Below, piece by piece: positions 47,440-47,788 of a DNA stretch of 64,000 nt. The DNA comes from Oxalicibacterium flavum. GTDB taxonomy: Bacteria; Pseudomonadota; Gammaproteobacteria; Burkholderiales; Burkholderiaceae_D. The stretch lies in the NCBI RefSeq assembly GCF_014635065.1, contig NZ_BMCG01000003.1:124001-188000 (forward strand). The letters run 5' to 3'. A program made the position numbers and the translations under genes. Every line of letters starts with the position of its first letter. Position 1 is the stretch's first letter. Below the pieces are notes generated by a model. It was not told the origin of the DNA and did no database searches. It worked only from the letters and a program-made list of their open reading frames with translations.

Positions 47440-47545
47440 ATGGCACTGATGATCACCGACACGAGGTCTGGGAATTCGCAAAGCATCGCTTTGTGCCAGA
47501 CTGCGCAGCAAGCGTTTGCTGTATTCGTCCGTTTCGAGCCATGTA
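47440..47545 (+). repeat. Ferredoxin-leader repeat, unit 1 (106 bp)
   Basis: Starts with a copy of the first seven ferredoxin codons (encoding MALMITD, with three synonymous differences from the gene). Hairpin A follows: GTCTGG 47466-47471 with CCAGAC 47496-47501, inner stem CAAAGC/GCTTTG. Hairpin B is CAGCAA/TTGCTG around GCGT. The unit ends TGTATTCGTCCGT...GAGCCATGTA. Confidence 0.85.
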
Positions 47546-47672
47546 ATGGCTTTCATGATTACGGACACGCGTCCTCGGGAATTCGCAAAGCACTGCTTTG
47601 CGCCGAGGCGCGCACAGATGGCTTGCAAGCCATCGGTGTATTCGTCGGTGCGTATGGAAAGGTGAGCAAGTC
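47546..47672 (+). repeat. Ferredoxin-leader repeat, unit 2 (127 bp)
   Basis: Starts with ATGGCTTTCATGATTACGGAC (first seven codons, one residue changed: MAFMITD). Hairpin A has the stem CCTCGG (47573-47578) with CCGAGG (47603-47608) in place of GTCTGG/CCAGAC, and the same inner stem GCAAAGC/GCTTTGC. Hairpin B is CAC-A-GATGGC, TTGCAA, GCCATC-G-GTG. The tail is the most divergent of the three units. Confidence 0.85.
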
Positions 47673-47788
47673 ATGGCACTGATGATCACTGACACGAAGT
47701 CTGGGAATTCGCAAAGCATTGCTTTGTGTCAGACTGCGCAGCAATCGCTTGCAAGCGATTGCTGTATTCGTCCGTTGGGAGCCATGTA
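47673..47788 (+). repeat. Ferredoxin-leader repeat, unit 3 (116 bp)
   Basis: Again opens with the MALMITD codons (three synonymous differences from the gene). Hairpin A: GTCTGG 47699-47704 with TCAGAC 47729-47734, inner CAAAGC/GCTTTG. Hairpin B: CAGCAATCGC 47739-47748 with GCGATTGCTG 47755-47764. It ends GAGCCATGTA directly at the ferredoxin ATG. Its own reading frame of 38 codons ends with a TAA that overlaps that ATG by one base. Confidence 0.87.

Follow-up and report, generated by a model that had tools for sequence, protein, structure and literature searches.

In Oxalicibacterium flavum the start of a ferredoxin gene is preceded by three tandem repeat units whose hairpins keep pairing while their sequence changes, which raises the question of what these repeats are and at which level, RNA or DNA, their pairing is maintained. 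An earlier note had attributed the pattern to selection on structure, in RNA or as folded single-stranded DNA. Based on an analysis of the surrounding 64,000 nucleotides (the window) and of homologous copies from other genomes, we read the repeats as likely tandem copies of a tiny DNA cassette that is probably mobile.

The repeat array and its three hairpins

The stems of hairpins A and B noticed previously are all present in the sequence and pair as described. Between units 1 and 2, four of the six outer pairs of hairpin A are changed on both sides; hairpin A of unit 3 pairs as well, including one G-T pair; and hairpin B pairs in all units, with an A/G mismatch in unit 2 and as a shortened form in unit 1. 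The repeat unit proved bigger than first described: the opening 21 bases of the ferredoxin gene are copied in it, and it has a tail that is complementary to this gene. Tail and gene pair across the insertion point in a third hairpin, C, which the earlier note had missed. The features of the array and its neighbours are the following (window positions).

46909..47409, + strand: coaD, the neighbour upstream of the array (TIGR01510, E 9e-55)
47440..47460, + strand: outer copy of the ferredoxin gene start, first of four (ATGGC...ACCGAC)
47466..47501, + strand: unit 1 hairpin A (model match 47460-47526, 62.1 bits)
47506..47521, + strand: unit 1 hairpin B, about 10 nt shorter
47522..47532, + strand: unit 1 tail TATTC/GTCCGT, complementary to ACGGAC of the next copy
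47546..47566, + strand: gene-start copy no. 2, ending ACGGAC
47573..47608, + strand: unit 2 hairpin A (model match 47567-47643, 85.3 bits)
47613..47638, + strand: unit 2 hairpin B
47639..47649, + strand: unit 2 tail TATTC/GTCGGT (type 2)
47673..47693, + strand: gene-start copy no. 3, ending ACTGAC
47699..47734, + strand: unit 3 hairpin A (model match 47693-47769, 86.7 bits; in RNA and DNA folds)
47739..47764, + strand: unit 3 hairpin B, a perfect palindrome around GCTTGCAAGC (in RNA and DNA folds)
47765..47775, + strand: unit 3 tail, the 5' arm of hairpin C, pairing with 47804-47814 across the insertion point
47789..47809, + strand: functional gene start, with the cassette boundary after 47809 (GAC^GAATGC)
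47804..47816, + strand: insertion site inside the gene, the 3' arm of hairpin C
47789..48055, + strand: YfhL-family 4Fe-4S dicluster ferredoxin gene (NF033683, E 1e-38)

Each outer ATG opens a frame that runs to the next gene start (47440-47809), and in this frame the stop of unit 3 overlaps the ferredoxin start in the sequence TAATG. The predicted fold of 47690-47830, which covers unit 3 and the start of the gene, has -65.5 kcal/mol for RNA (z -6.9) and -41.2 for DNA (z -8.3), none of 200 shuffles being as good in either case. Across the whole genome, a covariance model built from 20 copies matched this array only (the three units, plus a weak reverse-strand match to the same DNA), and the perfect hairpin-B apex CGCTTGCAAGCG occurred three times, once in the array and twice at the 3' end of ilvC. 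Searching the window against Rfam at gathering level revealed no family for the element, only a tRNA and an SAH riboswitch elsewhere; at E<=1 the element matched only mir-2831, far under its cut-off. The SAH riboswitch (RF01057, 58.1 bits) lies at 2928-3007.

Covariation and base pairing

Covariation was evaluated with homologous copies, a covariance model and a tree-aware null of our own design (FastTree tree and Fitch change counts) instead of R-scape. It was above background, and stronger once homologues were added; the earlier note had named the lack of such a signal as the outcome contrary to its claim, and this did not occur. In a small set of 20 chosen, diverse copies, 94.6% of cells were paired and two-sided changes were found at 16 of 25 pairs, while 0 of 500 shuffles reached any of five measures and slid controls were 28-43% paired. 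A dispersed set, taken from 100 of the at least 119 loci matching a hairpin-A pattern (see below), yielded 112 matches and 108 distinct copies, which were 91.8% paired with two-sided changes at 19 of 25 pairs (0/500 shuffles). Since the pattern constrained the inner stem of hairpin A and the alignment of the rows followed the model, the outer stem of A and hairpin B carry the weight. Under the tree-aware null, 16 of 24 stem pairs of the 108 dispersed copies covaried at E<0.05, as against none of the 2532 other column pairs. With only the 17 rows from the ferredoxin locus, the corresponding values were 7/35 and 0/4338, and two pairs of hairpin C fell just short of significance (E 0.054 and 0.058).

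Given that the two-sided, pairing-preserving changes are real and above background, the structure matters in some way. The step from such changes to selection is less secure, because template switching during replication can create or repair stems; passages of PMC8794818 report perfect stems and multibase compensatory changes of this origin. Replication template switching is the main rival to the cassette reading. Snap-back copying on the nascent strand would create the inverted tail, slippage between short repeats would duplicate the gene end, and repeated switching between arms would keep the stems, all without a recombinase and with no need for selection on structure. The base pairs of the dispersed copies (2295 Watson-Crick, 46 G-T and 30 A-C cells, 12 of the 46 G-T falling at one pair) are overwhelmingly Watson-Crick, which speaks for this account. 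We regard it as possible though doubtful, for reasons that lie in the distribution of the element described below.

Hairpins A and B at the ferredoxin locus contain 15 G-T cells and 2 A-C cells (the cells not being independent), an excess of G-T that speaks for an RNA-level constraint at this locus and against the cassette reading. As a discriminator between RNA and DNA, the ratio of G-T to A-C was dropped as not decisive, with 46:30 in the dispersed copies and 15:2 here. The excess would fit a cis-regulatory RNA leader, in which hairpins A, B and C control translation of the ferredoxin and the duplicated starts form a coupled upstream frame. In the predicted fold an inner hairpin and hairpin C enclose the start codon. 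Read from the outer ATG, a frame that may keep translation coupled has no stop until at most 12 nt from the inner ATG in 17/17 cassettes, and in 16/17 its stop lies no more than 10 nt from that ATG; however, the other non-trivial frame is likewise open in 11 of the 17. A peptide-coding role of the upstream frame was rejected, its codons 8-32 lacking third-position bias (7, 9 and 4 variable columns). Further to this, the dispersed copies show little of the strand bias expected of RNA, the module has no match to an Rfam family, it is missing from the ferredoxin leader in three congeners, and downstream of ilvC, proA and hprK it lies opposite in orientation to transcription. An RNA leader is in our judgement unlikely.

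A dispersed element and its occurrence at gene ends

Together, hairpins A and B make up the core of a two-hairpin element that is dispersed over many genomes, chiefly those of Betaproteobacteria. The hairpin-A pattern alone matched at least 119 stretches, most of them from Betaproteobacteria by record title (Azonexus, Sulfuritalea, Aromatoleum, Herbaspirillum, Collimonas, Noviherbaspirillum and others); Alcanivorax and Alloalcanivorax were likewise among the matches. The full two-hairpin model matched 79 of 80 loci picked by hairpin A, the remaining one (L193) having hairpin A only. Model matches were present in 11 of 13 genomes of the genus and, in the family, in 55 of 116 genomes and 27 of 44 genera (E<=0.001, strict filters), with at least 41 matches in one genome (G034), where this was also the number of candidates scored. 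Many dispersed copies lie inside other palindromes or behind stop codons, for instance that of pilT. With regard to the GTAG or CGTC tag that borders the stem in REP/REPIN elements, hairpin A is preceded by GTAG in some of them (L143-L146, L156) and by GTGAG, GCGAAG or GCGCAG in others. At L148, L149 and L151 the element occupies the apex of a long inverted repeat common to several loci in two congeners. A common neighbouring gene was sought by clustering 2348 frames near 81 loci and discarded, as the listed clusters, read by eye, were frames overlapping the element or ordinary-looking genes. No larger autonomous version was found at ilvC among the matches listed.

Short, conserved palindromes that are dispersed in intergenic DNA and often tandem are also a feature of REP/REPIN elements, which are moved by RAYT (REP-associated tyrosine transposase). 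The many copies of the element in one genome, its palindromic, intergenic and tandem nature, and the presence of exactly one PF01797 gene in each of the 13 genus genomes would agree with such an origin, although O. flavum itself has the array only. Its single Y1-type transposase gene is located at G000:C3:18556-18879. Yet linkage to RAYT genes is missing: the fetched flanks of 38 PF01797 loci (8 from the genus, 30 from the family) contained 0 model matches, which ruled out RAYT linkage as a supported mechanism, and two genomes (G001 and G002) have a PF01797 gene and no element at E<=0.01. To our knowledge, REPs have neither copies of a gene terminus nor a tail matched to the target. We consider RAYT-moved REPs very unlikely. 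An IS110 mover was also discarded as a common cause, because PF01548 was present in just 1 of the 13 genus genomes and absent from that of O. flavum.

At gene ends the element is embedded in a cassette with a recurrent order, which reads, with the gene body at right, outer gene terminus, hairpin A, hairpin B, tail, spacer, gene terminus and gene body. This order was seen at the ferredoxin start in the window and in L004-L008, L010, L011, L015, L044 and L047-L049, as well as at the 3' ends of ilvC, proA and hprK genes, the proA 3' end of genome G009 containing six 101-bp units. Cassettes measure about 100-190 bp overall and ferredoxin units roughly 105-130 bp. The 3' ends of tRNA-Ser genes are duplicated around hairpin B (L366, L384), the 5' end of a response-regulator gene (L236) is duplicated without a matching tail, and the ferredoxin gene of AAP99 (L285) shows a second junction, whose short inverted match fails the tail test. 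Some ilvC cassettes, among them both at the ilvC of O. flavum (L288, G000:C2:567000-568100), have an intrinsic terminator instead of hairpin A, which counts against the cassette reading; inclusion of a terminator in the ilvC tandem arrays is what plain tandem duplication, as in template switching, would produce. UKL13-2 (L263) has two partial 5' halves of tRNA-Phe, with the element in the D-loop, upstream of an intact tRNA. Flanking direct repeats were flagged at 40 of 161 hairpin-A sites, some of them being tandem arrays or other repeats and not gene ends. Since the duplicated block varies by gene, from 22 to 51 identical bases, a single fixed target-site duplication length was dropped.

The tail matched the reverse complement of its site in 17 of 21 cassettes (p<0.05 vs shuffles), and in all 17 the exact complementary run crossed the insertion point. 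Cassettes not passing were those of G007, G010 and AAP99 and that of the response regulator. The independent support is weakened by 13 of the 21 being ferredoxin cases homologous to one another and by the near-palindromic sequence of the ilvC and tRNA sites. Inspection by eye indicated that the tail follows the gene of its host: ATTC^GTC accompanies codons 7-8 reading GAC^GAA (hosts with GAC^GAAT), AATC^GTC was found in the three genomes with GAC^GAT (GAC^GATT), and the tail has CGGT where the gene has ACC and CCGT where it has ACG. In nine cassettes whose upstream and downstream gene copies differ, the tail was closer, again by eye, to the downstream copy in 7 and to the upstream copy in 0. 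Template switching offers its own explanation, as snap-back would copy the bases flanking the insertion point in inverted order. It leaves unexplained why the same two hairpins with conserved apexes occur at unrelated gene ends across genera, and why the duplicated block ends near the start or stop codon, with unrelated sequence beyond.

Filled and empty sites were compared as well. Among 13 congeners the ferredoxin cassette was present in 8, reduced to a remnant in G002 and absent from G001, G008 and G011; G004 was not parsed. The ferredoxin start of the empty G011 is identical to the outer copy of G005 (21/21 bases), and the inner G005 copy differs at 4; judged from this match, the inner gene-start copy of G005 looks like the imported newcomer. 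For ilvC, empty sites (L289-L292) and filled ones such as L307 exist within one genus, with the native terminator beyond the outer copy. At both genes the same site is thus filled and empty in related genomes, as expected of mobile elements in general.

Whether it lies at a 5' or a 3' end, the cassette is oriented in the same way to the gene body. The orientation of the corresponding RNA therefore flips between 5' and 3' sites, which favours a DNA-level foldback element over a ferredoxin riboregulator. Of the two levels proposed in the earlier note, folded single-stranded DNA fits best, and the hairpins are not specific to the leader, as they occur at other gene ends too.

Origin and propagation of the cassettes

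Duplication and restoration of a gene end is shared with tyrosine-recombinase integrative elements, which typically insert at tRNA 3' ends and at gene ends that they restore, and the cassettes might be remnants of such islands whose attachment sites restore the gene ends. The junctions in the T-arm of tRNA-Ser are in line with this, as is the only long insert that we looked into: in G113 (L141, G113:C1:1558500-1571000) the 3' end of ssrA is duplicated, and a 186-bp element array and a single element flank about 6.5 kb that include a reverse transcriptase gene (PF00078, E 3.6e-25) and an IS30-like transposase. However, no integrase was found among five ORFs tested in this insert, the O. flavum genome has only three PF00589 genes, and unrelated sites have the hairpins in common, not a core sequence. 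The cassettes also differ from these elements in their size and in carrying no integrase gene. An origin from integrative islands therefore seems quite unlikely.

Functionally, the units resemble integron gene cassettes in being small and tandem, with a 3' foldback whose joining point is within one arm. The attC site that ends an integron cassette at its 3' side is likewise a foldback with the joining point inside one arm, and GTTRRRY is the core motif of its junction. By eye, this core is absent at the junctions GAC^GAATGC, GGC^ATCATG and TT^CGAATCC. The units differ further from integron cassettes in that they carry no open gene, and in that the loop of their hairpin C is formed by the terminus of the host gene. 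Rickettsia palindromic elements and MITE-like repeats, described in passages of PMC2229807 as non-autonomous and able to lie in coding regions, are similar in both respects; in contrast to these, the cassette duplicates the interrupted gene end and adds no in-frame extension, and no terminal transposon repeats were identified.

Taken together, we lean towards reading the tandem units as a non-autonomous foldback DNA cassette of about 105-130 bp that entered the ferredoxin gene between codons 7 and 8 and is propagated through a folded strand. Hairpins A and B would act as recognition structures on the folded single strand, the tail would match the target, and arrays would enlarge by repeated insertion or unequal recombination. 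Apparently the cassette brings along a second copy of the gene end that it interrupts, by which the host gene would stay whole and survive. Pairing of the stems may be kept because the foldback is needed for propagation, or by template-switching repair, and the ferredoxin leader transcript may add a constraint at the level of RNA or translation coupling. No enzyme, circle or movement was seen in the sequences analysed, which counts against the cassette reading. More tentatively, sub-200-bp foldback cassettes could form a new, integron-cassette-like class that targets the ends of housekeeping and tRNA genes by tail pairing and supplies a replacement terminus. No description of such an element was found in the literature searched, which covered few subscription papers, or by term look-up in the REP papers PMC3733652 and PMC2817692.

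The covariation at this locus is that of a dispersed DNA element, which cautions against taking every covarying hairpin in a bacterial leader for a riboregulator. Since the tail tracks ferredoxin codons 6 to 8 in each host, target matching is directly testable. If the cassette reading is true, selfish or passive foldback DNA would enter conserved genes and leave them unbroken by supplying the gene end anew, in insertions so small that annotation pipelines overlook them.
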